Source of the DNA: a virus
Virus record (IMG/VR): IMGVR_UViG_3300033142_000581
Coordinates: 1 to 34,889 of that record
Length of the DNA: 34,889 bases
Strand: one strand, 5' to 3'
Position numbers and translations under genes: made by a program. Each line of letters begins with the position of its first letter. Positions within the stretch are counted from its first letter, which is position 1. Below, piece after piece: positions 1 through 21,861 of this stretch. Below the pieces are notes generated by a model. It was given only the letters and a program-made list of their open reading frames with translations. It made no database searches and was not told where the DNA came from.

Positions 1-282
1 GCGATGTTTAAACGCTATCTCTTCAGCTTCCTCTCGTTGGTCTGGGTGTACACATACATACCTAATAATCATAAAAGGATTAGATGAATTACTCCAAACA
101 CAACGGTATCTTATCTTTGCTTTTCTGAGTTTCTTGCAGAACTCTTTGATTTCTGTGATTCCAGTGTCAGCCCATTGCTCTGTAATGTTACAGCCTCCAA
201 CAGCATTGACTGGCTCCAACCAAGAACGCCACCCGTCCAGACGGAATATCTTGGATTTAGTAGTATTAATATGCGCTGACAT
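1..282 (-). CDS. Hypothetical protein, C-terminus beyond the left edge
   Basis: Leftward gene open from an ATG at 282-280 to the edge of the window (94 codons visible). It overlaps the end of the upstream gene by 17 bases, which suggests translational coupling. The product starts MSAHINTTKSK and contains a mixed stretch with Trp, Cys and several basic residues (ITEIKEFCKKLRKAKIRY). No signal peptide, membrane segment or catalytic motif is visible. One GTTTAAAC copy (6-13) is read here as Ala-Phe-Lys-His. Family not recognised; it is accepted as a gene from its open frame and its place in a tightly packed array. Confidence 0.6.
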   Translation of the reverse strand, partial: MSAHINTTKSKIFRLDGWRSWLEPVNAVGGCNITEQWADTGITEIKEFCKKLRKAKIRYRCVWSNSSNPFMIIRYVCVHPDQREEAEEIAFKHR

Positions 283-589
283 TTCTCATTTGATTTTGTT
301 GGTAACTTGCTGAAGCCCACTCATCATCATCATAATAACTATTTGTCATGTTGTGATAGTACATCTTCAACTGTACGCTCAGTGCGTTTAAACACTCTAT
401 CTCTTTGTAGTCAACAACTGTGCAGTCACTACATACTTTGCCAAGCATACCGCCACCAAGATAGTTTTGATATGCTGTCATTTTGTGGTGAGGATATCCC
501 CAATCGTCAAGGCGTATCTCAACACCCCCGCCACGCGGTGAGACCTCTTGTCTTACCACCGCGTTCGCTATTTTCTCAGCACTACTCAT
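266..589 (-). CDS. Hypothetical protein, 107 residues
   Basis: Leftward gene starting inside the last codons of the gene at 582-830 (8-base overlap) and overlapping the next gene downstream. The N-terminal half is Gly-rich (residues about 16-50, with RGGGVEIRLDDWG and NYLGGGMLGK); the C-terminal half is rich in Tyr, Asn and Asp. It has four Cys but no clear zinc-binding spacing. A GTTTAAAC copy at 386-393 is read as Cys-Leu-Asn inside YKEIECLNALS. Not recognised. The overlaps on both sides argue for a real gene in a compact operon. Confidence 0.6.
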   Translation of the reverse strand: MSSAEKIANAVVRQEVSPRGGGVEIRLDDWGYPHHKMTAYQNYLGGGMLGKVCSDCTVVDYKEIECLNALSVQLKMYYHNMTNSYYDDDEWASASYQQNQMRNVSAY

Positions 590-830
590 GGTCTACCTCA
601 TCGTTTAAACAAAGCAATACATCTCCTACTACAATACGCCCCGCAATATCAGAAGCTTTAGGATTAATGTCTCTGTCTTTTAAAAGACCTTCTTCATCTA
701 CATACATAAATGAATGAGCATCTACTGGACAATACTCTATGTATCCTCCAACATGATTTTGAATTTTCTTTAAAGACGATATGTCAACATCTCTGACAAT
801 TTTCCCGTCTGTCTTAATTAAATCTGCCAT
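582..830 (-). CDS. Hypothetical protein, 82 residues
   Basis: Small leftward gene with an A/T-rich Bacteroidota-type leader (TTTAATTTAATTTATATG). The product is acidic: MADLIKTDGKIVRDVDIS, then a segment IQNHVGGYIEYCPVDAHSF and a C-terminal tail ending CLNDEVDHE. A GTTTAAAC copy (603-610) encodes the Cys-Leu-Asn near the C-terminus. No motif recognised. It is the first protein gene after the structured RNA and tRNA-like elements at 893-1058, and a further GTTTAAAC copy (857-864) lies just upstream of its start. Confidence 0.6.
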   Translation of the reverse strand: MADLIKTDGKIVRDVDISSLKKIQNHVGGYIEYCPVDAHSFMYVDEEGLLKDRDINPKASDIAGRIVVGDVLLCLNDEVDHE

Positions 831-892
831 ATAAATTAAATTAAATTATGCGTACTGTTTAAACAGGGTTTCCGCTTTCCCTTTATATTATC

Positions 893-961
893 GAGCAGAG
901 ATTTGTATTATGACAGTCGTCACTGCCTGTTCCTCCGTGGGTTCTTGTAACCTCTCTGCTC
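893..961 (-). ncRNA. Candidate structured RNA, three-way junction
   Basis: Seen directly: a perfect 9-bp closing stem (893-901 with 953-961, GAGCAGAGA/TCTCTGCTC on the transcript strand) encloses two hairpins. One is GGTT-loop-AACC (940-943 with 949-952). The other is GGCAGT-GACG-ACTGTC (912-917 with 922-927, one G-U pair). The single-stranded joiner between them is purine-rich (CACGGAGGAACA). Drawn as leftward RNA it starts four bases after the tRNA-like element and precedes the gene at 582-830. The shape is riboswitch-like or that of a small ncRNA, but I recognise no known class. Strand is inferred from flanking genes. Confidence 0.5.
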
Positions 962-965
962 TTTG

Positions 966-1058
966 AAGACGGGCGCGGATTCGAACCGCTAATTAATAAC
1001 CTAAGGTCTTGTGTCAAATTTTCAAAACCACTTCCCCGCACCATGCGATGACCCGTCT
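966..1058 (-). tRNA. tRNA-like element, identity unclear
   Basis: On the minus strand the ends pair perfectly as a 7-bp acceptor stem (AGACGGG at 1058-1052 with CCCGTCT at 973-967). Next to it is a canonical T arm: GCGG, loop TTCGAAT, CCGC. The interval is 93 bases, as in tRNAs with a long variable arm, and CCA is not encoded. The middle contains TTTGAAA, which resembles a Ser(UGA) anticodon loop, but its flanks do not form a good 5-bp stem and the D arm is poor. It may be a degenerate or divergent tRNA, or a tRNA-like structure with another role. GTTTAAAC (1060-1067) lies one base from its 5' end. Confidence 0.45.
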
Positions 1059-1072
1059 TGTTTAAACGCTCT

Positions 1073-1297
1073 CTATAATCTTTCCAGAAAGTCGTCCACC
1101 AACATAAATGGTGTTATCTCATCAAGTCCATTGACTTCTATAAAATCTTTAGCGCATCTATGTACATGGTCGCGAAACTCTTTGTCTGACTTCCACCATT
1201 TAGAGCCTACAATTACGCCACCGTGATTGAAGAACATATCGCTAATAGATAATCTCTCTCTGTTTAATAACTCCGTGATTGATAATAATTTTTCCAT
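1073..1297 (-). CDS. Hypothetical protein, 74 residues
   Basis: Leftward gene starting at an ATG 24 bases from a good promoter -7 box (1321-1328), with leader TTTAAAACTTATATATATG. The product is MEKLLSITELLNRERLSISD, then a Gly/Trp stretch (HGGVIVGSKWWKSDKEF) and an acidic C-terminus ending VDDFLERL. It looks like a small soluble alpha/beta protein. No family recognised. It is the last protein gene before the tRNA-like element, so its promoter probably also drives the RNA elements at 893-1058. Confidence 0.6.
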   Translation of the reverse strand: MEKLLSITELLNRERLSISDMFFNHGGVIVGSKWWKSDKEFRDHVHRCAKDFIEVNGLDEITPFMLVDDFLERL

Positions 1298-1320
1298 ATA
1301 TATAAGTTTTAAATTCTGTA

Positions 1321-1351
1321 CAAGTATACAACTTTTTTATAAACTGTGCAA
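1321..1351 (-). promoter_or_regulatory. Bacteroidota-type promoter, leftward
   Basis: On the minus strand TTG (1351-1349) is followed after 20 bases by TATACTTG (1328-1321). This matches the TTTG-N19/20-TAnnTTTG promoter of Bacteroidota with one mismatch in the -7 box. It lies 24 bases before the ATG of the gene at 1073-1297. TGTACAA and TTGTACA occur in inverted orientation around it (1318-1324 and 1355-1361), a possible operator. Confidence 0.5.
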
Positions 1352-1397
1352 GTTTTGTACATTAAAATTAATTTTAATTTGCTCACCTTGTTTAAAC

Positions 1398-1431
1398 GCA
1401 CTGGGCTTTTTGTCCGCGATTGACCCAGTGC
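1398..1431 (-). other. Intergenic hairpin next to GTTTAAAC
   Basis: A perfect 8-bp stem, GCACTGGG (1398-1405) with CCCAGTGC (1424-1431), closes an 18-base loop containing a further GTC/GAC pairing. It lies between two leftward genes and directly abuts GTTTAAAC at 1390-1397. No T run follows on the minus strand, so it is not an ordinary intrinsic terminator. It could be a processing or regulatory element of the early transcript. Confidence 0.45.
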
Positions 1432-1456
1432 ATTATTTGTCTTTCTTTTCTGTGCA

Positions 1457-1660
1457 TTAGTCTCGTCTTACTGTATAGTCTTCATTCACTAAGCTGAAAA
1501 CCTCTTGATAATATTCTTGAGGAACTTCAGCTTCTTTCATCTGTTCGTGAATCTCTTCGAATAAAGCGTCTACTACACTGCTGAGCGAACAACTGTCAAC
1601 TTGATTATACCAATATGATACTTGTTCGAATCTTTCTTCTGCTGTTAATGTGTTTTCCAT
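1457..1660 (-). CDS. Hypothetical acidic protein, 67 residues
   Basis: Small leftward gene with leader AATTTAAAATTTATATT before the ATG. The product is acidic and mostly helical in appearance: MENTLTAEERFEQVSYWYNQ, then VVDALFEEIHEQMKEAEVPQ and a C-terminus ending YTVRRD. No membrane segment and no recognised motif. It follows the gene at 1687-1908 and precedes the hairpin at 1398-1431. Small acidic early proteins are common in phage takeover regions, but nothing here shows a specific role. Confidence 0.6.
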   Translation of the reverse strand: MENTLTAEERFEQVSYWYNQVDSCSLSSVVDALFEEIHEQMKEAEVPQEYYQEVFSLVNEDYTVRRD

Positions 1661-1686
1661 AATATAAATTTTAAATTAGACTTTGT

Positions 1687-1908
1687 TTAAACGTCGTCTA
1701 CCTCATCTGAGTTAGACAATATACTCTCCGCAATTTCAAGTGAAATAAACTCCAGAACTTCATAATAAATATAGTCACCGCCTTGGTGCATTTGTAATCC
1801 TGATTTATCTGCAACATTTTCAATGTGCGAAACTAATCTGCTTATCAACGTATAATCTCCGTCAATAGCGTCATAGATTTTTTTGGCTATCTTTCTTTCT
1901 ATACTCAT
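1687..1908 (-). CDS. Hypothetical protein, 73 residues
   Basis: Leftward gene whose ATG lies two bases after the stop codon of the gene at 1911-2135, so translation is probably coupled. GTTTAAAC copies mark both ends: 1909-1916 touches its start codon, and 1685-1692 supplies its last codon and stop (GTT TAA). The product (MSIERKIAKKIYDAIDGDYT, ending SNSDEVDDV) is helical in appearance with an acidic tail. No family recognised. Confidence 0.6.
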   Translation of the reverse strand: MSIERKIAKKIYDAIDGDYTLISRLVSHIENVADKSGLQMHQGGDYIYYEVLEFISLEIAESILSNSDEVDDV

Positions 1909-1910
1909 GT

Positions 1911-2135
1911 TTAAACGTCCTCCATTTTTTCATCATGTTTGTCCCACTTTTCGATAGCCTCTTCAATCTCGTCTTTCATGTCGACAATTCTTTCACACGC
2001 GTCCAGTAATATCTCTAATCCTTCGCGCTCGTAATTGCTCATGTCTACACTCATTTCGCCGTTCTCAATTGCCTCTGCACAATCTATTACATCGCCAGAG
2101 GTATTTTCAAATCGACAGTAACTTAAATTTCCCAT
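1911..2135 (-). CDS. Small phage protein with N-terminal YCRFENT motif
   Basis: The product begins MGNLSYCRFENTSGDVIDC. I recall this N-terminal signature (xxSYCRFENTxxDLxDC) from many small, uncharacterised phage and prophage proteins. The rest is acidic and helical (ILLDACERIVDMKDEIEEAI). The function of the family is unknown to me. The gene has a typical leader (TTTAAAAATAAAACTATG), follows a structured intergenic element, and ends in GTT TAA from the GTTTAAAC copy at 1909-1916, two bases before the next start codon. Confidence 0.7.
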   Translation of the reverse strand: MGNLSYCRFENTSGDVIDCAEAIENGEMSVDMSNYEREGLEILLDACERIVDMKDEIEEAIEKWDKHDEKMEDV

Positions 2136-2162
2136 AGTTTTATTTTTAAAGTTAATAACTCC

Positions 2163-2227
2163 TGCACCGCGTTTAAACGGTGCAACGCTTTGAGCTTATC
2201 GTTCTTTTTATAGTCGCTCAAACGACT
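2163..2227 (-). promoter_or_regulatory. Structured element A: pseudoknot-like plus GTTTAAAC hairpin
   Basis: On the leftward transcript: AGTCG-TTTGAG-CGACT forms a hairpin (2227-2212), and its loop plus the next base (TTTGAGC, complementary to GCTCAAA at 2195-2189) can pair 16 bases downstream, as in an H-type pseudoknot. Then comes a 7-bp hairpin TGCACCG/CGGTGCA (2184-2163) whose loop carries GTTTAAAC. The same arrangement with different but still paired bases occurs at 3067-3129. It lies between the gene at 2227-2481 and the leader of the gene at 1911-2135. Function unknown; a role in RNA processing or translation control is inferred. Confidence 0.55.
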
Positions 2228-2481
2228 TAATAGATATCTTCTATTTCGTGAAACTCTATCACCCATGACCCGTAACCTTGAAACTTTACGCACGGTTTAC
2301 CTTCATGCGTTACGTCTACAATTTTACGCTTGACGTTTGACCCTCTCCCGTAAAATGACCACCAGTTAAAATGGATAGTTTTCCCGATTTCTATTTTGTC
2401 TTTGAATTCTGAAATGCCTTCGGCTTCTGCCTTAGAATTTCTTTTCTTGTCCAGTATTTTATCAACTATTAAACTTCTCAT
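2227..2481 (-). CDS. Hypothetical protein, 84 residues
   Basis: Leftward gene joined to the upstream gene by an ATGA overlap (2478-2481), a sign of coupled translation. The N-terminus is charged (MRSLIVDKILDKKRNSKAEA). The C-terminal two thirds look like a small beta domain: IGKTIHFNWWSFYGRGSN, VKRKIVDVTHEGKPCVKF, GYGSWVIEFHEIED. This resembles small SH3-like or barrel folds, but I recognise no family. Its stop codon overlaps the first base pair of structured element A. Confidence 0.6.
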   Translation of the reverse strand: MRSLIVDKILDKKRNSKAEAEGISEFKDKIEIGKTIHFNWWSFYGRGSNVKRKIVDVTHEGKPCVKFQGYGSWVIEFHEIEDIY

Positions 2482-3041
2482 ATTGTTTGAATTTTATTTA
2501 ATCTTTCTAATTTCTCCGCGTCGTTTAAACAGTCCCAATCCTTTGGCTTTTGCCAGTTTGGAATTTTGTTTCTCATCGTCGCAAATACAATCTTTTCTTT
2601 ATACTTCACCGCGTCCGCTGTGTCGTCTTTCTTACTCATCAAATCCCCTAACATTAGAAAAGCTTTCATTGAATTCAAGACTGGGTCTGGCTCTTGCTCC
2701 TTGTTGTTAATCTTGTCCAGTAAATCCAAAAGGTCAATCCCAAAGTACCCGCCAAACTCACGGCTTTTGAAATACTCGCGAAGCTCTTTCTTTCTGGTGT
2801 CGTTTAAACGCTTCCAGTCAGGAAATACAACGCGATGAACTTGGTTCATATTATATTGAATCATATCTTCAACTACCTTCCTCATTGAGGTTTGAAACTG
2901 GTAGTCTTCCCATGTTCTATTATAATAATGTACAGACGTTTTATTGATTTGCACACCGTTAAAATACAGTGTTGAATCATGGCTGAATCCTCCGCGTCTG
3001 CTACGGCTTGAATTCTTGATTTCAAATTTTTTAAATCTCAT
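2478..3041 (-). CDS. Hypothetical protein, 187 residues
   Basis: One of the two longest genes of the leftward array, with leader TTAAAAATTAAATTATG after structured element B. The product is basic and charged (MRFKKFEIKNSSRSRRGGFS) with Trp/Tyr-rich strands (NRTWEDYQFQTSMRK), a helical middle and a Lys-rich C-terminus (WQKPKDWDCLNDAEKLERLN). Two GTTTAAAC copies fall in its coding sequence, read as Cys-Leu-Asn (2523-2530) and Arg-Leu-Asn (2802-2809). No catalytic motif or known family is apparent. Confidence 0.65.
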   Translation of the reverse strand: MRFKKFEIKNSSRSRRGGFSHDSTLYFNGVQINKTSVHYYNRTWEDYQFQTSMRKVVEDMIQYNMNQVHRVVFPDWKRLNDTRKKELREYFKSREFGGYFGIDLLDLLDKINNKEQEPDPVLNSMKAFLMLGDLMSKKDDTADAVKYKEKIVFATMRNKIPNWQKPKDWDCLNDAEKLERLNKIQTI

Positions 3042-3066
3042 AATTTAATTTTTAAGTTATACAACC

Positions 3067-3129
3067 CGCACTGTTTAAACAGTGCGACGCTTTGGGCTTA
3101 ATGTGCTGTTTTAAGTCGCCCAAACGACT
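3067..3129 (-). promoter_or_regulatory. Structured element B: second copy, overlapping a small gene
   Basis: Second copy of the arrangement at 2163-2227. On the leftward strand AGTCG-TTTGGG-CGACT (3129-3114) is followed, after the same 16-base spacer, by GCCCAAA (3097-3091), complementary to the loop. The 20-base perfect palindrome CGCACTGTTTAAACAGTGCG (3086-3067) follows. Relative to copy A the 7-bp pairing changed from GAGC/GCTC to GGGC/GCCC, and the terminal stem changed entirely while staying paired. Here the first hairpin lies inside the coding sequence at 3098-3226, whereas in copy A it is non-coding. Confidence 0.55.
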
Positions 3130-3226
3130 CCAGACCTTTCACAAATTGTCTCCACTCTTTGCGCGTTTGCTTTGCGCGTCTTCGCGCTTTGCTTTGTCTG
3201 TTTGGTTTATTGATTTTAAATATCAT
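3098..3226 (-). CDS. Small basic protein, 42 residues
   Basis: Short leftward ORF with a leader like its neighbours (CAAAAATCAAATCAAATG). The product is very basic: MIFKINKPNRQSKARRRAKQ, then TRKEWRQFVKGLESFGRLKT and AH. About a third of the residues are Lys or Arg, which would fit nucleic-acid binding, but no family is recognised. The last 30 bases lie in structured element B, so the codons for ESFGRLK also form the hairpin. The good leader and correct spacing support it as a gene despite its size. Confidence 0.5.
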   Translation of the reverse strand: MIFKINKPNRQSKARRRAKQTRKEWRQFVKGLESFGRLKTAH

Positions 3227-3251
3227 TTGATTTGATTTTTGGTTATACAAT

Positions 3252-3273
3252 AGACAGCGTTTAAACGTTGTCT
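3252..3273 (-). other. GTTTAAAC hairpin over a stop codon
   Basis: AGACAGCG-TTTAAA-CGTTGTCT forms an 8-bp stem with one G-U pair and a TTTAAA loop, centred on GTTTAAAC (3259-3266). The stop codon of the gene at 3261-3479 (GTT TAA) lies inside it. The stem sequence is unrelated to those of the other GTTTAAAC hairpins. Confidence 0.45.
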
Positions 3274-3479
3274 CTCTTAAATGCGTCCTTCACTATGTCA
3301 AGGCATAACGTACCGCCCATATAAAACAGGAAGCCGATAAATAAAGCGCAAGGCATGAACGCGATTAAATTGGTTAGGCTTTTGATATCCGTGGCTAAAA
3401 TGTGAACTAATAAGCGCACACAAGAGACCGCGACAAATCCGAAGCATAACGACACTAAAATTGAATTTACTTTTTTCAT
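3261..3479 (-). CDS. Small membrane protein, two predicted helices
   Basis: Leftward gene; the start chosen is the ATG at 3479-3477 because its leader (AAATAAATCAAATTATG) matches the neighbours, although the frame is open further upstream. The 72-residue product has a short basic N-terminus (MKKVNS), a hydrophobic helix at about residues 7-28 (ILVSLCFGFVAVSCVRLLVH), a second at about 37-60 (LIAFMPCALFIGFLFYMGG) and a charged tail (KDAFKRDNV). An inner-membrane location is likely. Superinfection exclusion or host membrane modification would fit an early phage membrane protein, but this is inference. Confidence 0.6.
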   Translation of the reverse strand: MKKVNSILVSLCFGFVAVSCVRLLVHILATDIKSLTNLIAFMPCALFIGFLFYMGGTLCLDIVKDAFKRDNV

Positions 3480-3548
3480 AATTTGATTTATTTGGTTACT
3501 GTTTCGTACTTTTGTACTCATCAGGCAAGGCACACACCTTGCGACAGT

Positions 3549-3568
3549 GGGGCGCGTTTAAACGCCCC
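3549..3568 (-). other. GC-rich GTTTAAAC hairpin after the SprT-like gene
   Basis: GGGGCG-CGTTTAAA-CGCCCC forms a perfect 6-bp GC stem with the palindrome in the loop (GTTTAAAC at 3556-3563). It lies eight bases downstream of the stop codon of the gene at 3576-4193. No T run follows, so intrinsic termination is not supported; transcript stabilisation, processing or protein binding are alternatives. Confidence 0.45.
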
Positions 3569-3575
3569 GCATTCA

Positions 3576-4193
3576 CTACCATTCAAGGTCGCCACCGCAA
3601 CCCGTCGGACAATCAAACTCGTTTATCATGTTGAGGTTTTTCCTCGACGTTCTAAAACTGAAGTCACAACAGTTACAAGAAACTTTTATATTTCTGGTGG
3701 TCTGTGTACGTCCGCCCGTTCTAAGCTGTTGGTGAGGGAATAAACCGAGCTTCTTAACAATCTTCTCAGTCATTAAATTTTGTAGCCATTCGCTTTCTCC
3801 TGTGCTTCTCATTTGTCCAGTCAAACCGACAGCTGTTGCGCACTGTTTAAACGCTTGACCGTGTCCACTTTCGCAATTGTCAACCGCATGGACTAACTCA
3901 TGAACTAACACCCCTAAAATTCGTAATGAACCTTCTAACGTTGACCCGCTTAATGCTGGCGTTATAATTACATGATTTATCCCGTCGTCGCTTAATTGTG
4001 TCGGGTAACATTGACCCAATACAGAAACGCCCAGTTTATTTTTGTTTGTCTTATTACCACGGCTTGCCCATGATACAGATAGTTTTACCGTTGGGACTTT
4101 GTATCCCTTAGGACTAAAAAGAGATTTACGCAAGATTTTTGTTGCCTCTTGCAAGTATGTTTCCCTGTTTAGTTTTGAAGTTTTAAATTTCAT
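3576..4193 (-). CDS. SprT-like zinc metalloprotease
   Basis: The 205-residue product has the zincin signature HELVH at residues 98-102 (LVHELVHAVDN), followed by GHGQAFKQCA with the likely third ligand His111. A C-terminal Cys-rich segment (from about residue 173: SCNCCDFSF, then DCPTGCGGDLEW) looks like a zinc ribbon. HExxH, then GHGxxF and a zinc ribbon are characteristic of SprT/Spartan-like proteases, some of which cut DNA-bound proteins. The target here is unknown. It is the first gene of the leftward array, with a -7 box about 30 bases upstream of its start. GTTTAAAC at 3845-3852 is read as Ala-Phe-Lys-Gln. Confidence 0.8.
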   Translation of the reverse strand: MKFKTSKLNRETYLQEATKILRKSLFSPKGYKVPTVKLSVSWASRGNKTNKNKLGVSVLGQCYPTQLSDDGINHVIITPALSGSTLEGSLRILGVLVHELVHAVDNCESGHGQAFKQCATAVGLTGQMRSTGESEWLQNLMTEKIVKKLGLFPHQQLRTGGRTQTTRNIKVSCNCCDFSFRTSRKNLNMINEFDCPTGCGGDLEW

Positions 4194-4221
4194 AATGTAT
4201 ATATTTAGTTATTAATATGTA

Positions 4222-4229
4222 CAAAGATA
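4222..4229 (-). promoter_or_regulatory. Leftward promoter -7 box
   Basis: TATCTTTG on the minus strand matches the Bacteroidota -7 consensus TAnnTTTG and lies 29 bases before the ATG of the SprT-like gene. No convincing TTTG -33 box is seen at the expected distance, so the promoter is weak or activator-dependent. It would be the head promoter of the leftward array. Confidence 0.4.
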
Positions 4230-4386
4230 GTATAATTATTGTATAATCCTAATTAATTTTATACTGATTTTAAAAATATATTTTCTTGCACCTTGTCCCA
4301 TGCTTGTAACTGGCTGATAGTCAGAGCGTTATCCTGTTAATAACTTTATCTTTTTTTAGTAGATTTATTTTGTCTTTTGATTTATC

Positions 4387-4450
4387 GCGGGGGGATAAAG
4401 AGGGAATTCCTTTTGTCTCTTTACTTGCAAAACGTCAGACCTTCCCCCGC
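4387..4450. repeat. Large inverted repeat in the divergent control region
   Basis: GCGGGGG (4387-4393) pairs with CCCCCGC (4444-4450). Nested inside, TAAAGAG (4396-4402) pairs with CTCTTTA (4417-4423), around the small palindrome GGAATTCC. The structure could be a DNA cruciform, an origin element or a leader RNA. It lies ten bases from the GTTTAAAC cluster. The rest of the gene-free stretch 4194-4701 holds the leftward -7 box, the cluster, and a G/C-run hairpin (GGGGG 4616-4620 with CCCCC 4652-4656, enclosing GGGT-ATT-ACCC). Confidence 0.5.
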
Positions 4451-4459
4451 CTTAACGTT

Positions 4460-4533
4460 GTTTAAACACCCTGAACCCCACACCGTTTAAACATTCCCGA
4501 CCCCGCAACGTTTAAACATGACGGCGTTTAAAC
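4460..4533. promoter_or_regulatory. Cluster of four GTTTAAAC palindromes
   Basis: Exact copies start at 4460, 4485, 4510 and 4526, spaced 25, 25 and 16 bases, between the leftward array and the rightward genes. The sequence between them is C-rich and not conserved. Clustered palindromes in a divergent intergenic region are typical of an operator or a replication or partition site. The cluster lies about 230 bases upstream of the leftward -7 box at 4222-4229. No binding protein is identified. Confidence 0.6.
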
Positions 4534-7381: not shown

Positions 7382-7825
7382 TTTATTTTCTCTATTAATT
7401 TTTTTCATATAATTTCTGTAAACCTTATCTCTGTATTTTACATCGTGTTTAAACACTGGGTTGTTTGATGCGTTTTCAGGTATGTCTTCACCATTTAGTT
7501 TGGCATAGACATTACTTATCATTCTCTTTGCCTGAAAAGTTAATTCATAAAGAGCAGCTTCATTACCTTTCTTTGGTCTCCATTTATGAATCCAACCTTT
7601 CTTAATTAATTTATAAAACCTATTGTTATCCCAAGACATTAGTTCATTGTATTCTTCAAACTTGGTTTTAGTAAATAAGTGTTCACTGTATAGGAATAAC
7701 ATGAGTTCTAATTCACCAGTTGTAATATCATACTTACGTTTAGCCCAGTATTTAATTACTTTCCAATATTTTAAATAATCATGTTCGGGTTGTTTACGAC
7801 TTGTGTTTCGTACGATGATAGGCAT
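7376..7825 (-). CDS. Putative winged-helix DNA-binding protein
   Basis: The 149-residue basic product has a helical region (residues about 30-95) that resembles a MarR-like winged helix: DITTGELELMLFLYSEHLFT, then a recognition-helix-like SWDNNRFYKLIKKGWIHKWR and a wing-like KKGNEAALYELTF. The C-terminus is Lys-rich. It is the only leftward gene among rightward ones and shares a palindromic divergent promoter with the gene at 7880. That placement suits a regulator of late genes. GTTTAAAC at 7447-7454 is inside its coding sequence, within the longer palindrome GTGTTTAAACAC. The fold is inferred by eye. Confidence 0.6.
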   Translation of the reverse strand: MPIIVRNTSRKQPEHDYLKYWKVIKYWAKRKYDITTGELELMLFLYSEHLFTKTKFEEYNELMSWDNNRFYKLIKKGWIHKWRPKKGNEAALYELTFQAKRMISNVYAKLNGEDIPENASNNPVFKHDVKYRDKVYRNYMKKINRENKL

Positions 7826-7848
7826 AAAATAAATTTGATTTAATTAAT

Positions 7849-7867
7849 TATCTTTGTTACAAAGATA
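7849..7867. promoter_or_regulatory. Palindromic divergent -7 boxes
   Basis: TATCTTTG-TTA-CAAAGATA is a near-perfect palindrome that places a Bacteroidota -7 box (TAnnTTTG) on each strand. It lies between the leftward gene ending at 7825 and the rightward gene starting at 7880. No clear -33 TTTG is seen at 19 bases on either side, so activation by a factor is likely. Confidence 0.55.
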
Positions 7868-7879
7868 GAATAAAATTAA

Positions 7880-8017
7880 ATGGCAAGAAAAATAGTTAGC
7901 AGCTATAGTTATAAACCCAAAAAAAAAAGACCTGGGGTCCATTCTAAAAATAGACACACTAAACAAACAAGTGGCAAATATTATAGTGGACGATTATACC
8001 GAGGTCAAGGAAGATAA
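7880..8017 (+). CDS. Small basic protein, 45 residues
   Basis: Starts 13 bases after the divergent -7 box, with leader AATAAAATTAAATGG. The product (MARKIVSSYSYKPKKKRPGV, HSKNRHTKQTSGKYYSGRLY, RGQGR) is strongly basic and rich in Tyr, Ser and Gly, with no hydrophobic core. It resembles short basic proteins that recur in marine phage genomes beside other small conserved genes. It may be a DNA- or RNA-binding or virion-internal protein, but no family name is certain. It is the first gene of the basic-protein cluster. Confidence 0.6.
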   Translation: MARKIVSSYSYKPKKKRPGVHSKNRHTKQTSGKYYSGRLYRGQGR

Positions 8018-8020
8018 ATT

Positions 8021-8395
8021 ATGAGTACAAGAAACGTAGCAATAAAAGAAGGGGGTAAAGCCGCTCTAAAAAAAATAGGAAAAAAAATTGCTTCTAAAGT
8101 TGTTGGAGTTGGAGGTGCTCTACTTAATACACAAAAAGCCTATGGTGGTCAACTTTCTAAAAAACAATTAAAAGACAAATACGGCTTTAAAGAGTTTGGG
8201 GGAGACGGAGGTGCACTCCCAAAAAAGAAAACTAAAATGTCTATGAGAAAACCAAAGGCAAGCATTTGTCCTTCAGGTATCGCTTGGGCTAAAAGAACTT
8301 TTGATAAGTACCCGTCTGCGTATGCGAATATGGCGGCAAGTAAATATTGTAAAGACCCTAATTACGCAAAGGGTTCTAAAAAGAAAAAAAAATAA
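8021..8395 (+). CDS. Basic Lys-rich phage protein, 124 residues
   Basis: Begins three bases after the previous stop. The N-terminal half is basic with a Gly/Ala stretch (ASKVVGVGGALLNTQKAYGG). The C-terminal half carries the motif CPSGIAWAKRTFDKYPSAYA followed by NMAASKYCKDPNYAKG and a Lys run. I recall similar AWxKR/YPSAYAN/ASKYCKDP patterns from small proteins of marine phages. The two Cys and the conserved aromatics suggest a small folded domain. Role unknown; virion-internal or nucleic-acid binding is possible. A related pattern occurs in the gene at 9758-9937. Confidence 0.65.
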   Translation: MSTRNVAIKEGGKAALKKIGKKIASKVVGVGGALLNTQKAYGGQLSKKQLKDKYGFKEFGGDGGALPKKKTKMSMRKPKASICPSGIAWAKRTFDKYPSAYANMAASKYCKDPNYAKGSKKKKK

Positions 8396-8399
8396 AGTC

Positions 8400-8636
8400 A
8401 TGAAAAAACCTATGTTAAATGCTATACAGAAAGCCAGAATGTCTATGGCTATGAAATCTAAAAACCCTAAAATGAATCCAGGGTTTGATTCATTACCAAA
8501 AGATGTACAGGCAAAAATTATGAATAAAAAAAAGCCTAAGATGGCTATGAAGAAAAAAGCTAAAATGGGAATGAAAAAAGCTAAGGCAAGTCAAACAGCT
8601 GGAGCTATAATGAAAAGAGAAAGATTAATGCTGTAA
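8400..8636 (+). CDS. Met/Lys-rich basic protein, 78 residues
   Basis: The start at 8400 is chosen because it follows the previous stop by four bases and the product then begins MKKPMLNAIQKARMSMAMKS; the open frame upstream overlaps the preceding gene. The middle holds NPGFDSLPKDVQAKIM, and the C-terminal half is low-complexity with repeated KPKMAMKKKAKMGMKK. It is basic and probably partly disordered, as expected for a nucleic-acid-binding or scaffold-type protein. The stop overlaps the next start (TAATG). Not a recognised family. Confidence 0.6.
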   Translation: MKKPMLNAIQKARMSMAMKSKNPKMNPGFDSLPKDVQAKIMNKKKPKMAMKKKAKMGMKKAKASQTAGAIMKRERLML

Positions 8637-8980
8637 TGGGATTTAAACTTAAAACATTAGGACAGGTTTTAGATTTCAGTGATAAATATTCTACAGGCGA
8701 TTATATAGTTAAAGAAAAGAAGCTGGGTAAATATACTTTGGGAGAAATAAATCCTAACGGTGTGATTGATATTGCAAAAGATATATCACCTGCATTAAAA
8801 AGAAAAGCTGTAAAGCATGAGGTAGACCACTTGTATCAAATGCGTAGAGGTGAAATGAGGTTTGACCATAATAATTATTACTACAAACCAACTCCTTATT
8901 CTCAAATACAAGTAATACCTAATAGTAAAATTAACCCTCACGATAGAAATCTACCGTGGGAAAAAGATGCACATCACTAA
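8636..8980 (+). CDS. Zincin-like protein with HEVDH motif
   Basis: The 114-residue product contains HEVDH at residues 61-65 in KAVKHEVDHLYQMRRGEM and a downstream LPWEKDAH (106-113) that could give the third zinc ligand Glu109. HExxH plus a conserved LPWExxA block is the pattern of small phage zincin-like domains. The N-terminal part (LKTLGQVLDFSDKYSTGDYI) is beta-like. A protease role is plausible, possibly virion-associated, but activity is not shown. It sits among small basic genes with overlapping stop/start codons (TAATG) on both sides. Confidence 0.65.
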   Translation: MGFKLKTLGQVLDFSDKYSTGDYIVKEKKLGKYTLGEINPNGVIDIAKDISPALKRKAVKHEVDHLYQMRRGEMRFDHNNYYYKPTPYSQIQVIPNSKINPHDRNLPWEKDAHH

Positions 8981-9219
8981 TGGGAGAATTAAAAAAATGG
9001 GTAAAGCAACAATGGGTCCGCATAGGTACTGACGGAAAAATAAAAGGACCTTGTGGTACATCCAAAAATAAAAAGAACCCTGATAGATGTTTGCCTTTAG
9101 CAAAAGCAAGAAGATTAAGTAAAAAACAATTAGCTCAAACAGCTAAAAAGAAAAAAGCTTCTGGTGGAAAGAAACAATTTGTTTCTAATACAAAAGCTGC
9201 AAAAGTAAGAAACGCGTAG
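8980..9219 (+). CDS. DUF5872-like small basic protein
   Basis: The start at 8980 overlaps the previous stop (TAATG). The 79-residue product has the pattern KKWVKQQWVRIGTDGKIKGP followed by CGTSKNKKNPDRCLPLAKAR, then LSKKQLAQTAKKKK. This WVxI-x-dGKIkGPCG-xxxxxNPDRCLP-xxKA signature is what I recall for DUF5872, a family of unknown function frequent in viruses and marine bacteria. Two conserved Cys may bind metal or form a fold core. The C-terminus is Lys-rich and probably disordered. Confidence 0.7.
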   Translation: MGELKKWVKQQWVRIGTDGKIKGPCGTSKNKKNPDRCLPLAKARRLSKKQLAQTAKKKKASGGKKQFVSNTKAAKVRNA

Positions 9220-9223
9220 TGTT

Positions 9224-9511
9224 ATGTCTAAAAAAAATATGCCATGTAATAGACCAAGACCTTCTACCCGACCAGGTAAGAAAAAAATGGTTAAAGGTTG
9301 TGAAGGGGGAAAAGAAAAGCTTATTCACTTTGGAGCAAAAGGATATGGACATAATTATTCAGCAGCTGCAAGAAAAAGCTTCAAGGCCCGTCATAAGTGT
9401 GGAACAGCAAAATCAAAACTAACTGCACGCTATTGGGCATGTAAAAATTTATGGGCAGGAAAAGGCGGAAGCAAGAAGAGTTCCCCCCAAAATAGACAAG
9501 GAAAATATTAG
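9224..9511 (+). CDS. Conserved small phage protein, Cys-containing
   Basis: The 95-residue product contains MVKGCEGGKEKLIHFGAKGY, then ARKSFKARHKCGTAKSKLTA and RYWACKNLWAGKGG. The HFGxxGYxH ... SFxARHxC ... ArYWaCk-LW pattern is one I have seen in many tailed-phage genomes, often beside DUF5872-like genes; its function is unknown to me. Four Cys (at CNRP, GCEG, HKCG and WACK) may form a zinc site. Starts four bases after the previous stop. Confidence 0.65.
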   Translation: MSKKNMPCNRPRPSTRPGKKKMVKGCEGGKEKLIHFGAKGYGHNYSAAARKSFKARHKCGTAKSKLTARYWACKNLWAGKGGSKKSSPQNRQGKY

Positions 9512-9519
9512 TATATTTG
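9512..9519 (+). promoter_or_regulatory. Possible -7 box
   Basis: TATATTTG matches TAnnTTTG and lies 27 bases before the start at 9547, in the only sizeable gap of this gene cluster (9512-9546). A -33 TTTG is not evident. Confidence 0.35.
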
Positions 9520-9546
9520 TAATTATAATTATTTAAAAATAAAATT

Positions 9547-9756
9547 ATGGCACAAGGTTATAACGACAGACTCGATGAGTCATTAGGCGCGAAGCACGGA
9601 AAGAAGTCTCAATCTTTTAAAGATAGAAGAGATGAATCTAAAGCAATGTCTAAAAAAATATATGGACACGCGTATGGTGGAGACCACTCTATGAAATATG
9701 AAAAACATTATCCTAAAAGTGTTAAGTCACATTTAGGAGGTTTAATTAGAAAATAG
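9547..9756 (+). CDS. Small charged phage protein, 69 residues
   Basis: Good leader (ATTTAAAAATAAAATTATGG). The product (MAQGYNDRLDESLGAKHGKK, SQSFKDRRDESKAMSKKIYG, HAYGGDHSMKYEKHYPKS ...) has the LGAKHGKKSQSxKDRRDESKxM pattern known from small conserved proteins of bacteriophages and some large viruses. It is highly charged with few hydrophobic residues, so it is likely disordered or nucleic-acid associated. Function unknown. The next gene follows its stop by one base. Confidence 0.62.
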   Translation: MAQGYNDRLDESLGAKHGKKSQSFKDRRDESKAMSKKIYGHAYGGDHSMKYEKHYPKSVKSHLGGLIRK

Positions 9757-9757
9757 T

Positions 9758-9937
9758 ATGGCTTTTCCAGAAATAAAAAAGAAAGACCAAGGTAAATTTA
9801 CTGCTTGGGCTAAAAAAAACGGATTCAAAGATGCGTGTAGCGCAGCATCTGCAGTAATGAAGAGTAAGAAAAAATATTCTCCTTCTGTAGTAAAGATGGC
9901 TAACTATGCGAATAACTTTGGCTGTAAAAGAAAATAA
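9758..9937 (+). CDS. Small basic phage protein, 59 residues
   Basis: Starts one base after the previous stop. The product (MAFPEIKKKDQGKFTAWAKK, NGFKDACSAASAVMKSKKKY, SPSVVKMANYANNFGCKRK) has an AWAKK block, an ACSAAxxVM helix and a MANYANNFGC ending. This layout recalls the AWAKR/YANMAASKYC part of the gene at 8021-8395, so the two may be related. Function unknown; a basic virion or DNA-binding protein is possible. Confidence 0.62.
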   Translation: MAFPEIKKKDQGKFTAWAKKNGFKDACSAASAVMKSKKKYSPSVVKMANYANNFGCKRK

Positions 9938-9947
9938 AATTAAATCT

Positions 9948-10145
9948 ATGGCTAAATCTAAAAAAAAGGCTGATTCGAAAGAAGAAGTTAAAAAAGTAAA
10001 AGCAACTGAAAAAAAAGTAGAAACAAAAAAGGTTAAGGTAAAAAAACCTACGGAACTTAAGGCAATGCCTACGTTTATAGAAATACCGTATGTTCCAAGA
10101 AAGATAGACAGACTACCTAAAGACCTAAGTAAATTAAAAAAGTAA
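9948..10145 (+). CDS. Lys-rich low-complexity protein with conserved C-terminus
   Basis: The start at 9948 has a clear leader (AAAATAAAATTAAATCTATG); an upstream in-frame ATG overlaps the previous gene and is less likely. The N-terminal two thirds are Lys/Glu/Val repeats (VKKVKATEKKVETKKVKVKK), probably disordered. The C-terminus is a compact motif, MPTFIEIPYVPRKIDRLPKD. Such basic tails resemble histone-like or virion DNA-packing proteins, but this is a guess from composition. The stop overlaps the next start (TAATG). Confidence 0.6.
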   Translation: MAKSKKKADSKEEVKKVKATEKKVETKKVKVKKPTELKAMPTFIEIPYVPRKIDRLPKDLSKLKK

Positions 10146-10285
10146 TGGGAAAATTATTAGTAAAAGTAGGAATGTGGATTTCAAAAATGTGGTGTAAACT
10201 ATTATGCAAATGGAATTGGCTTCTTTCTAAAATGATAGTGAATGTAAACGATTGTCCAGTGGCACAATGTGTTTGTAAAAAATAA
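10145..10285 (+). CDS. Small Trp/Cys-rich protein, 46 residues
   Basis: ATG overlaps the preceding stop codon. The product (MGKLLVKVGMWISKMWCKLL, CKWNWLLSKMIVNVNDCPVA, QCVCKK) has an N-terminal amphipathic or membrane-binding helix rich in Trp and Leu, then a short Cys-rich tail. Five Cys in 46 residues suggest metal binding or membrane association. No family recognised. It could be a small membrane-active protein, but the evidence is composition only. Confidence 0.5.
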   Translation: MGKLLVKVGMWISKMWCKLLCKWNWLLSKMIVNVNDCPVAQCVCKK

Positions 10286-10289
10286 TATA

Positions 10290-10460
10290 ATGAAATTAAA
10301 CGAAAAGTCCCGAGGACTCGGAGATACTATAGAAAAATTTACCACGGCTACTGGTATTAAAAATGTAGTCACTAAAGTTACCAAAGCTGCAGGAGTAAAT
10401 GATTGTGGTTGCGGTCAAAGGAGAGACACTTTAAACCGTGTGTTTCCTTATAAAAAGTAA
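10290..10460 (+). CDS. Small phage protein with CGCGxRRDxLNRxFPY motif
   Basis: The start at 10290 (leader AAAAAATAATATAATG) is preferred over an upstream in-frame codon inside the previous gene. The 56-residue product has an amphipathic helix (LGDTIEKFTTATGIKNVVTK) and a C-terminal NDCGCGQRRDTLNRVFPYKK. I recall the C-x-C-xxRxxxLNxxFPY ending from small proteins in many tailed phages; the function is not known to me. The Cys pair may bind metal. It is the last of the small basic genes before the structural protein at 10491. Confidence 0.62.
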   Translation: MKLNEKSRGLGDTIEKFTTATGIKNVVTKVTKAAGVNDCGCGQRRDTLNRVFPYKK

Positions 10461-10490
10461 AGAGATTTTTAACCCTCTAAAATAAAAAAA

Positions 10491-11030
10491 ATGGCATATC
10501 CAAAAATTACCGTTAACACGGGCAAGGCATTTGAGATTCTTGCAAGTGATACAATACCTATCCCTTCACCATATTCAGTTCCATTAATAGGAACTACTAC
10601 TAATACAAGAGCAGACGGCTTAGAAGATAGCTCTGAAGATTTTAGTAATGTTGTTGTTGGAGATATAGTATACAACACAACAGACAGCACACTTACAACA
10701 GTTACTGGCTTAGTTAATTCAACAACATTAGATTTAGCTGATAATATATTTACTACAGGTGAAAATTATATTATTTGGCAAGCTGGACCAATATTTGAAA
10801 AAAGAATTGAATCATCTTCAGGGTGTTTACTTTATGTTGGAAGTAATGTTGCTAAAGGAAACATGACTATTGGTGACCAATACGGAGATGTGAAAGTAAA
10901 AACTACACAAGGCGATATAGTAACGTTTAGCAACTTCCCTGTAGGAGAGTATCTTCCACTACAAATAGTACAACTGTATTCAACTGGTACAGATACTACG
11001 ATTAGAAATCAATGTTTAGCAATCTGGTAA
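10491..11030 (+). CDS. Probable virion protein with a shared beta module
   Basis: The 179-residue product is beta-rich, with few charged residues (MAYPKITVNTGKAFEILASD). Residues 56-96 (VGDIVYNTTDSTLTTVTGLV, then TTLDLADNIFTTGENYIIW) closely match residues 138-177 of the connector-region protein at 32845-33807, so one module is used twice in this phage. The C-terminal part (YGDVKVKTTQGDIVTFSNF) also looks like beta structure. A minor head, decoration or tail component is likely. The leader AAAATAAAAAAATGG is good. Confidence 0.6.
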   Translation: MAYPKITVNTGKAFEILASDTIPIPSPYSVPLIGTTTNTRADGLEDSSEDFSNVVVGDIVYNTTDSTLTTVTGLVNSTTLDLADNIFTTGENYIIWQAGPIFEKRIESSSGCLLYVGSNVAKGNMTIGDQYGDVKVKTTQGDIVTFSNFPVGEYLPLQIVQLYSTGTDTTIRNQCLAIW

Positions 11031-11040
11031 AATATTAATT

Positions 11041-11859
11041 ATGAGCAAACTACACAAAAGTAATAGAAGAAGCATGAGACCTAAGTTGTCCATGAAGCCA
11101 ATGATGTCAATGAAAAAACCTAAAGCAGCGGACGCTTCAGCTGCAGGAGCTGCGGCAGGAGCTGCAGGAAAGTTTGGCAAAGCAATGGGAACAGCTGGAG
11201 GAATATTAGGTATTGCGGGTAGCGCAATGAATATAGCGCAAGGATTAAAAAAGAGACCTAAGGTACAAGCTAAAAAAGCTCCTATTAAACCAGTAGCTGG
11301 AAGAGTACAAAAACCTCGTCTATCCAAAAAGAAAAAAGAAATTAAAAGATATAATATAAGTGGCTTTGTATCTAAACACACAGGATTAAAACCTGGTAGT
11401 TATGAAAGAGCTGTAATTATGAATGGTGTAAGAAATGCTGCTCCATCTCGTAGAAAAAAAATTATGGAACTTTTAAAAACTAATGCTGGTACAGCAGACA
11501 TGTTTAAAAAGCCAAAATTATCTGCAAAGAAAGTTGTATCCAGAAAGAAAAAAGCTATAGCAAGAAAAGAACAAATGATAGCTAATGCTAAACAAATGGC
11601 AAAAGACGGATTAGTTTCTAAAAAAAGAGCAGATAAAGATATCAAAAGAAAAAAGAAAGCAATAAGTAGAAAGAAAGCTATTATTGAAAAAGTGTCTAAA
11701 CCAAGACGAAAAGGTGTATTAGGTAAGTACAGAAAACCTAAACTACTTAAAACACATCCAAAAGAAAAAGGTTTAAATGTTAATGTAGGAGCAGGATTAG
11801 GAAAGCTTGCTGTCCTTGGAGGAACTGCATTAGGAATCGCATCAATGTTAAAAAAATAA
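11041..11859 (+). CDS. Large basic protein with Gly/Ala hydrophobic ends
   Basis: The 272-residue product is very rich in Lys and Arg (RLSKKKKEIKRYN; SRKKKAIARKEQM; KKRADKDIKRKKKAISRKKA). Two Gly/Ala segments flank the basic core: residues about 31-66 (AADASAAGAAAGAAGKFGKA, then GTAGGILGIAGSAMN) and 248-270 (GAGLGKLAVLGGTALGIASM). This layout resembles internal virion proteins that contact DNA and insert into membranes during ejection, but I recognise no homologue. It closes the cluster of basic genes before the lysis cassette. Confidence 0.6.
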   Translation: MSKLHKSNRRSMRPKLSMKPMMSMKKPKAADASAAGAAAGAAGKFGKAMGTAGGILGIAGSAMNIAQGLKKRPKVQAKKAPIKPVAGRVQKPRLSKKKKEIKRYNISGFVSKHTGLKPGSYERAVIMNGVRNAAPSRRKKIMELLKTNAGTADMFKKPKLSAKKVVSRKKKAIARKEQMIANAKQMAKDGLVSKKRADKDIKRKKKAISRKKAIIEKVSKPRRKGVLGKYRKPKLLKTHPKEKGLNVNVGAGLGKLAVLGGTALGIASMLKK

Positions 11860-11865
11860 AATAAA

Positions 11866-11934
11866 ATGGAATATTATACACAAACAAACACAGTGGGAGA
11901 TAACGTAGTATTTAATTATATATATGTAAAATAA
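11866..11934 (+). CDS. Microprotein, 22 residues
   Basis: Very short ORF (MEYYTQTNTVGDNVVFNYIY, VK) with leader AAAAAATAAAATAAAATGG, seven bases after the previous gene; its stop overlaps the next start (TAATG). Position and spacing are those of a real operon member, but the size leaves doubt. No function can be assigned. Confidence 0.4.
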   Translation: MEYYTQTNTVGDNVVFNYIYVK

Positions 11935-12245
11935 TGAGCTCGAATAAAAACTTATCGCCTGAAAGTAAATTTACTTTATCGTTAAAAGAAATGGTAGCAA
12001 TGGCTATAGGTTTTGCATCGCTCATTGGCATGTACTACACCCTACAAGCTCAAATTCAAACAGCAATGGAATTGCCAAAACCAGAGGTTAATGCCATTGA
12101 ATTCAAATATAAGGACGAATTGGTGCGTAGCACCATAGACAATATTCAATCTGATGTTACAAACATCAAAGATGATGTTAACGAAATCAAAGAGTCTTTA
12201 GCTAAAATGGATGAACGACTCTACGAAATAAGTAGAAAAAAATGA
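11934..12245 (+). CDS. Membrane protein with C-terminal coiled coil, lysis-associated
   Basis: The 103-residue product has one hydrophobic helix at about residues 19-37 (MVAMAIGFASLIGMYYTLQ), then a Pro-containing linker and a heptad-like coiled coil (about 68-101: STIDNIQSDVTNIKDDVNEI, KESLAKMDERLYEI). This topology is that of inner-membrane spanins or of small holin-accessory proteins. It opens a cassette that contains an endolysin and a holin, so a lysis role is likely. It overlaps the next gene by four bases (ATGA). Confidence 0.55.
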   Translation: MSSNKNLSPESKFTLSLKEMVAMAIGFASLIGMYYTLQAQIQTAMELPKPEVNAIEFKYKDELVRSTIDNIQSDVTNIKDDVNEIKESLAKMDERLYEISRKK

Positions 12246-12577
12246 GACTATGCGTAGTATTAATGTTATTTCCTATGTTGATTTTTTCTCAGGACTTCAA
12301 AGAGGAAATATCAGTAGTACAATTTAGCGCACCTTTCACAAAAGCTTCAGAAATTTCGCTGAAGCCGTTTAAACAGCACAACACTTATACTTTTAATATA
12401 ATCGAAAAGAAAGAAGTATTTGATGATGAAAAAATCAAATACCTTCCAACTATTATACTTTATCACAATGGTGATGAAGTACTGAGAGTGGAGAGTGGTA
12501 TCTCTTTAAAATTACCCGAAAACACTGTCGAGATGATAGAAAAAGAAATTGATAAAATTATTGAAAGTAAATTTTAA
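12242..12577 (+). CDS. Exported thioredoxin-fold protein lacking CxxC
   Basis: The 111-residue product has a cleavable-looking signal (MRLCVVLMLFPMLIFSQ). What follows resembles a thioredoxin: EEISVVQFSAPFTKASEISL, then IKYLPTIILYHNGDEVLRVE and SGI, where LPTxxLYxNGxEVxRxxG matches the cis-Pro strand region of thioredoxins. The active-site CxxC is absent; APFTKA stands at that place. It would be periplasmic and probably not a redox enzyme, so binding of a host or phage envelope protein is more likely. It sits between a membrane coiled-coil protein and a predicted barrel. GTTTAAAC (12367) is read as Pro-Phe-Lys-Gln. Confidence 0.6.
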   Translation: MRLCVVLMLFPMLIFSQDFKEEISVVQFSAPFTKASEISLKPFKQHNTYTFNIIEKKEVFDDEKIKYLPTIILYHNGDEVLRVESGISLKLPENTVEMIEKEIDKIIESKF

Positions 12578-12579
12578 AT

Positions 12580-13809: not shown

Positions 13810-14270
13810 TGGATAGAATATCAAAAAACATTACTTACAACGAGGCTATATTTTCTAATACAGCAAAAAGAAAAGGAATAGAAAACAAACCTAATGATGA
13901 ACAGATATCAAACATGATGTCCATAGCAGAAATGGTGTTTCAGCCACTTAGAAGTTATGTTGGTGGCCCCATAAAAATAACTTCTTTCTTCAGGTCGCCT
14001 GAATTAAATAAGGCTATTGGAGGAAGTGGGTCAAGCCAACATTGTAAAGGTCAAGCGATGGATGTGGATGATGTTTACGGACATAAAACAAATGCAGAAA
14101 TGTTTATGTATATAAGAGAAAATTTAGATTTTGACCAACTTATATGGGAGTTTGGTGATGATAAAAATCCTGCATGGGTTCATGTTTCTTATGTAGATAA
14201 ACAAGAAAATAGAAACAGGTGCTTAAAAGCATATAAAGAAAATGGTAAAACTAAATACATGATAATATGA
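13809..14270 (+). CDS. M15-family peptidase, endolysin
   Basis: The 153-residue product carries the M15 peptidase zinc signature: KITSFFRSPELNKAIGGSGS, then SQHCKGQAMDVD with ligands His78 and Asp85, and WVHVSY with His125. This is the fold of D-Ala-D-Ala carboxypeptidases and phage L-Ala-D-Glu endopeptidases (peptidase M15_3 type), which cut cell-wall peptides. There is no signal peptide, so release needs the holin that follows. The start overlaps the previous stop (TAATG), and the stop overlaps the holin start (ATGA). Confidence 0.88.
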   Translation: MDRISKNITYNEAIFSNTAKRKGIENKPNDEQISNMMSIAEMVFQPLRSYVGGPIKITSFFRSPELNKAIGGSGSSQHCKGQAMDVDDVYGHKTNAEMFMYIRENLDFDQLIWEFGDDKNPAWVHVSYVDKQENRNRCLKAYKENGKTKYMII

Positions 14271-14671: not shown

Positions 14672-14675
14672 TCGA

Positions 14676-15410: not shown

Positions 15411-15425
15411 TAAACAAAAAAAGAA

Positions 15426-17479: not shown

Positions 17480-17491
17480 ATTTAATTTAAT

Positions 17492-20548: not shown

Positions 20549-20550
20549 GT

Positions 20551-21114: not shown

Positions 21115-21116
21115 TT

Positions 21117-21845: not shown

Positions 21846-21861
21846 TCAAAAATAAAATACC

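Follow-up and report, generated by a model that had tools for sequence, protein, structure and literature searches.

A dispersed palindrome in a Bacteroidota phage is very probably an address tag read by a phage SprT-like protein

The IncP-1 plasmids contain dispersed palindromic operators for the global regulators KorA and KorB, that of KorA being GTTTAGCTAAAC. Cluster A mycobacteriophages carry 20–30 short sites per genome, some at the early promoter and most of them elsewhere, and the site sequence co-varies with the reader protein between phage groups (PMC6550527). PMC7302621 describes further short motifs situated at, or 14–30 bp before, gene starts, namely the start-associated sequences (SAS) and extended start-associated sequences (ESAS) of Clusters K and EF and the inverted repeats of Clusters EG, EC and O. 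On the protein side, SPRTN is described as a DNA-protein-crosslink protease (PMC5127644). Here we analyse a network of the 8-bp palindrome GTTTAAAC in the viral record IMGVR_UViG_3300033142_000581, a linear IMG/VR fragment from a phage of Bacteroidota with a GC content of 0.344, the whole of which (34,889 bases) is referred to as the window. The comparative analysis indicates that the network is very probably an address tag read by a phage SprT-like protein.

The window contains 29 exact copies of GTTTAAAC, 19 at positions 6–4533 and ten elsewhere, as the original prediction had stated, compared with a mean of 1.40 (maximum 4) in dinucleotide shuffles of the same DNA. When the 8-bp palindromes of the window were counted, GTTTAAAC was the most over-represented by a wide margin, the runner-up having nine copies. 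The excess also persisted in codon-aware shuffling: 14 copies lie inside predicted genes against 2.5 (maximum 8) after synonymous-codon shuffling, and the corresponding figures for the complete circular relative G002 are 31 against 3.3 (maximum 9), the genes of environmental genomes being called with a simple open-frame caller. The claim of roughly one copy per gene in the leftward arm was borne out, as the 15 left-arm sites outside the array have a mean spacing of 274 bp with a coefficient of variation (CV) of 0.20 (random 0.91, P<5e-5), and nine of them precede a leftward gene start by no more than 45 bp (1.8 at random). The other four form an array in the divergent region that separates the leftward early genes from the rightward genes, and three-site arrays occupy the equivalent place in the relatives G002 and G013. 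The sites of the right arm are over-regular as well (CV 0.45 versus 0.87 at random, P=0.013).

The flanks had been taken to be unconserved, which had to be corrected. The extended symmetric consensus reads A-NNN-Y-GTTTAAAC-R-NNN-T, with a purine at +1 in 89% of the sites of Bacteroidota phages and 98% of those of sphingomonad plasmids, and a T at +5 in 52% of the former, a share that reaches 77% in one viral group. A longer iteron-like consensus, which had been denied from the outset, was rejected here too, only YGTTTAAACR and the weak T at +5 being found. Single-mismatch variants were not enriched as a class, a few being modestly above expectation in some groups. The site thus appears to be a tight symmetric element of about 18 bp, as would be expected for a dimeric DNA-binding protein. 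A megablast search of the window against phages gave no match.

Relatives of the window phage were collected via a capsid-like protein, and some of their records are fragments. The motif is kept in some close relatives and lost in another. Of the 26 sites that can be aligned between the window and G002 (80% identity over the aligned parts), 23 are intact; the corresponding numbers are 19 of 23 for the window and G013, and 41 of 49 for G002 and G013. The complete relatives carry 42–46 sites (46 in G002). G004 is likewise 80% identical to the window where aligned, and it keeps none of 14 sites and has none in its 60 kb; scattered near-misses stand at the homologous positions, and no substitute enriched word was found in this genome. 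The loss in G004 comes together with loss of the gene for the candidate binding protein, sprT. More generally, a sprT-like gene is present in the site-rich G000, G002, G013 and G007 and absent from the site-poor G004, G006, G005, G008, G015 and G014. In the window it is the first leftward gene after the four-site array and itself contains the site at 3845. The words CAGCTG and CTGCAG were also over-represented in G002, G013, G001, the window and G004; since the excess is seen in the site-free G004 (28 copies of CAGCTG against 8.7 expected; 74 against 10.6 in G002), it is independent of sprT.

The association between protein and site was found in both directions. Starting from the motif, 81 viral contigs were gathered solely for three clustered copies of GTTTAAAC, the tandem-repeat contigs G034 and G044 being put aside. 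The family is encoded by 25 loci of this set (GC 0.34–0.55) compared with 0 of 75 capsid-relative loci, and a whole-record search of 50 of the triple-GTTTAAAC contigs found it in 14, three of which have the C-terminal part only. Starting from the gene, loci were retrieved by single-protein SprT queries alone. All 53 viral loci (about 40–50% identity to the query) contain at least three sites. Their 336 sites, 222 of which are outside the sprT gene, compare with 10.1 expected, and GTTTAAAC ranks first among the 8-bp palindromes of each locus. The SprT of plasmid pUT1 retrieved 80 loci, almost all of them located on Sphingomonadales plasmids or plasmid-like contigs, and 78 of the 80 carry sites (158 against 1.9 expected; 88 outside sprT); in the two site-free loci sprT is broken by stops or frameshifts. 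If sites within sprT are excluded, 10 viral and 21 plasmid-type loci are left without any. GTTTAAAC is also the top 8-bp palindrome in the isolates Pan1, R5C, Mica, Persinger and Alexa and in pUT1, and it is moderately enriched in ECO1230-10. Among plasmid-type loci from sphingomonads and Komagataeibacter, L353, L354 and L355 have a decayed or frameshifted sprT, and two of these three lack GTTTAAAC altogether. Pan1 (L203) and R5C (L209) also show strong enrichment of another palindrome, ATAA-N5-TTAT, with 7 and 4 copies against about 0 expected; it is perhaps a promoter or a further operator.

The window protein comprises an N-terminal HExxH peptidase-like domain (HELVH) and a C-terminal domain made up of RTQTTR and a zinc ribbon (RTQTTR...CNCC...FRTSR...CPTGCGG plus flanks). 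Its match to PF10263 (SprT-like) is weak (21.3 bits, below the curated cut-off of 25.6), 18 of 34 relatives match that profile at E<=0.01, and PHROG 6361 (phrog_6361), which has no annotated function, matches all 34 aligned family members. The AlphaFold2 (AF2) model has a mean predicted local distance difference test (pLDDT) score of 86.8, and its best Foldseek hit is human SPRTN (6mdw) with a probability of 0.99 and an E-value of 1e-3, the template-modelling (TM) score being only 0.35–0.38. Judged by this modelled fold and by most relatives, the family appears to be a member of the SprT-like superfamily. The Bacteroidota -7 promoter box has the consensus TAnnTTTG, which the putative box TATCTTTG ahead of the gene appears to match (Table 1).

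Several observations point to the C-terminal domain as the recognising part. The loci L144, L090 and L098, with 16–20 sites each, have only a frame of about 60 amino acids (KPKQTTRLRKVECARDVYIVRVSRSTIITHGTPICPTC core) that matches the SprT C-terminal domain, and the peptidase is dispensable for the sites because such C-terminal-only phages also carry them. HExxH is present in 151 of the 157 family open reading frames (ORFs) examined and lost in several site-bearing lineages, the site-rich members without it being L085, L103, L139, L218, L219 and L136. Two arginines and two cysteines, all in the C-terminal domain, are invariant in the family alignment A2. Neither GTTTAAAC nor the actinophage variant GTTTACAC is enriched in Epa5, Eden, Armstrong, Dismas and Bordetella MW2, whose SprT homologues lack both arginines, while all 19 named elements with an intact C-terminal domain carry sites. 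We therefore consider it highly likely, as far as comparison of genomes can tell, that the sites are the recognition sites of this domain. The stand-alone zinc-ribbon proteins of L144, L090 and L098 belong to PHROG 34373, which has no annotated function, and a fold search with the 60-amino-acid domain gave generic zinc ribbons only, none at E<=0.001.

Actinophages with an intact domain have only 0–2 copies of GTTTAAAC and no network of it. When the k-mers of Yang, Microdon and phage 4A were screened without a preset motif, the top word was GTTTACAC/GTGTAAAC, which is one base from GTTTAAAC. It occurs in 13–43 copies per genome in 11 whole actinophage genomes (Zeta1847, Percival, SuMoo, Tweety19, Maureen, Henoccus, Honk, Emotion, Microdon, Yang and 4A), the reversed-pattern control giving 0, and in 0–1 copies in the named GTTTAAAC phages and pUT1, with six in G002. 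The two orientations are mixed in rightward genomes (19/21 in Microdon, 19/22 in Henoccus). The same word is the dominant over-represented one of SprT-bearing actinophages, including loci L210, L211 and L213. Percival, a Cluster EH phage, has 14 copies; the accessible text of PMC7302621 gives no repeated motif for this cluster, and GTTTACAC is not among the Microbacterium phage motifs listed there.

The explanation that we favour, with a probability of roughly 0.7, is that the SprT-like family recognises the sites, most likely for phage-wide transcriptional control. Control of the early genes is the likeliest role of the sites, to which we give about even odds. The SprT-like protein would be made early, from the first gene beside the array. 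Its C-terminal domain would read GTTTAAAC by means of a basic K-K-Q-x-T-R arm followed by the zinc ribbon with the second invariant arginine, probably as a symmetric dimer covering about 18 bp. It would then occupy the four-site array and the sites just before each early gene start, and this occupancy might tune or shut off early transcription, while the sparser, even sites could carry the control over the whole genome. The peptidase domain, whatever role it may have, would be optional, several lineages having lost it and kept the sites. A lysogeny repressor is unlikely in the window phage group because no match to tyrosine integrase (PF00589) was found in G002, G013, G007, G001 and ten other records, in a search in which the positive controls matched; other members (Alexa, Mica, Persinger and Yang) do have integrases, and several members outside the window phage group are temperate.

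A number of points weigh against this explanation. The link between protein and site is a statistical one drawn from comparative sequence, and as both motif and family are shared by lineages, the counts are not fully independent. A conserved Phe-Lys pair favours TTTAAA within sprT, and some of the counted sites lie in this gene. The match between arginine loss and site loss, which would be expected once in 42,504 if the elements were independent, shrinks to about two independent losses when phylogeny is considered. G002 has its 46 sites despite RKDGVR in place of KKQxTR. In some site-rich contigs no family member was detected, most of these contigs being fragments with structural genes, and the only other genes common to site-rich contigs without sprT were structural genes of one clade. 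A site is found directly before sprT in Mica, Persinger, Alexa, ECO1230-10 and Pan1; over 157 genes this was the case for 10 against 6.8 expected, so that an upstream site is no general feature and autoregulation as a general claim was dropped. Many sites in R5C and Yang are intragenic and far from starts, which fits genome organisation equally well. As a separate observation, contigs G029 (L097) and G051 (L118), of 33–37 kb, carry 12–13 copies of GTTTAAAC and gave no SprT-family hit in the whole-record search; they may have a different reader, or a sprT-family gene off the contig.

Genome organisation is the main rival, though a less likely one. The recognition would be the same, and the sites would anchor phage or plasmid chromatin, in a bridging or partition complex, rather than act on single promoters. 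Over-regular spacing through coding and late regions is seen in several unrelated phages, the right arm of the window among them, with a combined P of 2.5e-11 over eight named genomes; plasmids carry the system too, and in pUT1 sprT adjoins genes for a ParA-like ATPase and a ribbon-helix-helix protein near repA. On the other hand, the dense sites of the window and G002 hug gene starts, those of Yang and Microdon are enriched between genes and ahead of starts, and spacing is irregular in the whole left arm of G002 and in Zeta1847, SuMoo and ECO1230-10. As a tentative broader proposal, the elements may share an undescribed DNA-addressing system in which a zinc ribbon, usually fused to an SPRTN-like protease, reads a dedicated word, GTKTAMAC, which each host element would have evolved at even distances over its genome as a mark of self-DNA. 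The targets of the protease, acting in cis, would be proteins bound to that DNA, such as blocking complexes, host silencers or a repressor form of the protease itself, and protease-less versions would only organise or silence the genome.

Returning to recognition by the SprT-like protein itself, an indirect link, with another host or phage protein binding the sites and SprT acting on that binder, for example by degradation, is improbable. It would agree with the description of SprT/SPRTN relatives as DNA-linked proteases (PMC5127644), but several lineages lacking HExxH or the whole peptidase domain keep the sites, the sites vanish where only the C-terminal arginines are lost, and the protein-site pair spans hosts of different phyla.

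That GUUUAAAC acts in RNA, as a processing, ribozyme-loop or kissing-loop signal, is very unlikely. Two copies in the window form P3 loops of Pistol ribozymes, both scoring above the RF02679 gathering score of 34.5 (Table 1). In the window's Bacteroidota phage group a phage has at most three such ribozymes, which lie in the leaders separating leftward genes and possibly process the early transcript. The P3 loop is GTTTAAAC in all eight Pistol ribozymes of the sprT-positive window, G002 and G013, whereas the sprT-less G004, without GTTTAAAC, retains a Pistol ribozyme with a different P3 loop. The palindrome has been put where the ribozyme tolerates loop variation, which points independently to selection acting on the site itself. 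Moreover, the majority of sites are outside ribozymes, and the asymmetric GTTTACAC occurs in both orientations in genomes whose genes run one way, which argues against the RNA processing sites suggested originally, as against oriented stoperators.

DNA modification or restriction, also put forward originally, is equally hard to credit: the site is a perfect 8-bp palindrome, that of PmeI, but the strong enrichment, the association with starts, the array and the coupling to a gene that is no methylase, and for whose product PADLOC gave no hit, do not favour it. Chance, composition or a codon artefact is refuted, for although the genome is AT-rich, dinucleotide and synonymous shuffles fail to reproduce the counts, and the TTTAAA-containing word is enriched even in genomes of 60–65% GC.

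The features discussed are collected in Table 1. Outside the network, the window encodes a phage GroEL at 5192–6796 (+) (phrog_5725, E 1e-135), and the relative MW202828 has groEL with an adjoining GroES-like chaperonin gene.

Table 1. Positions of sites, genes and ribozymes (in the window unless another record is named).
Feature	Position	Strand	Basis
15 regularly spaced GTTTAAAC, leftward arm (starts 6, 386, 603, 857, 1060, 1390, 1685, 1909, 2171, 2523, 2802, 3073, 3259, 3556, 3845)	6..3852	.	exact matches
Four-site GTTTAAAC array (starts 4460, 4485, 4510, 4526)	4460..4533	.	exact matches
10 further GTTTAAAC, rightward genes, mean spacing ~3 kb (starts 7447, 12367, 13790, 18156, 20253, 23957, 25612, 28582, 33104, 34368)	7447..34375	.	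exact matches
sprT-like gene, 205 amino acids, candidate site reader	3576..4193	-	site-matched presence/absence, family tests
SprT-like C-terminal region codons (approximate span), part that tracks sites	3579..3719	-	
TATCTTTG, putative -7 promoter box ~30 bp upstream of sprT start	4222..4229	-	direct sequence reading
Pistol ribozyme, P3 terminal loop is GTTTAAAC (site 3073)	3060..3129	-	Rfam RF02679, 67.3 bits, E 3.6e-11
Pistol ribozyme, P3 terminal loop carries GTTTAAAC (site 2171)	2156..2227	-	RF02679, 59.1 bits
Pistol ribozymes, L168	13171-13242, 14325-14394, 15155-15224		
Pistol ribozymes, L174	9078-9149, 10075-10143, 10733-10802		
Pistol ribozyme, L172	19106-19172		
sprT-like gene, G002	55374-56003		
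Stand-alone zinc-ribbon ORF (~60 amino acids), L144	1288-1467		
Stand-alone zinc-ribbon ORF (~60 amino acids), L090	2812-3039	-	
Stand-alone zinc-ribbon ORF (~60 amino acids), L098	9900-10082		

Searches of the open-access literature for GTTTAAAC or GTTTACAC together with phage, and for SprT together with phage repeats, returned no report of the pairing. The sequences point to what is apparently an undescribed, widespread DNA-recognition system that recurs in unrelated phages and plasmids of many bacteria. About 160 sequenced phage records and dozens of sphingomonad plasmids contain a gene labelled 'SprT-like protease' or 'transcription elongation protein', which thereby receives a candidate function, sequence-specific DNA binding, and the targets of the candidate protein can be read directly from the genome. 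The predictions cover where the protein binds, the division of its sites into two specificity classes (GTTTAAAC and GTTTACAC), which domain does the binding and which two arginines are key to it. Since gain, shift and loss of the sites go with the gene, the system may also serve as a model for how a genome-wide network of sites builds up once a DNA-binding protein has been acquired.

With SprT/SPRTN (Spartan, PF10263) the family shares an HExxH domain and a zinc-binding module, 6mdw being the nearest solved fold. We know of no sequence-specific genomic sites of SPRTN; in the present family the catalytic residues are dispensable, with the C-terminal domain and the sites co-varying. The dispersed palindromic operators and the single reader protein resemble those of IncP-1 KorA, but, compared by description only, KorA and KorB have other protein folds and GTTTAAAC lacks the central bases of the KorA operator. 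The SAS/ESAS and the EG, EC and O repeats are likewise short motifs repeated near gene starts; they have other sequences, and the accessible text of PMC7302621 names no reader protein for them. A good parallel is provided by the Cluster A stoperators of L5 and Bxb1 (Rep/gp71), which are also short genome-wide sites with a phage-protein reader. The number of sites (29 in the window fragment, 42–46 in complete relatives) and the array in the divergent region are as in Cluster A, and stoperator-like protein-binding sites over the early genes remain the best-supported kind of explanation among those first suggested, now with a candidate reader named. The repressor part of that suggestion did not stand in its classical form: the candidate is an SprT-like/zinc-ribbon protein instead of an immunity repressor, and no classical helix-turn-helix repressor. 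Further, Cluster A stoperators are oriented (PMC6550527), whereas GTTTAAAC is palindromic and its asymmetric variant GTTTACAC unoriented, and, unlike in Cluster A, the relatives of the window phage are without a tyrosine integrase and the pair also occurs on plasmids. The network thus resembles a stoperator or global-operator network, but it is outside the stoperator family, from which it differs in orientation and in type of reader.

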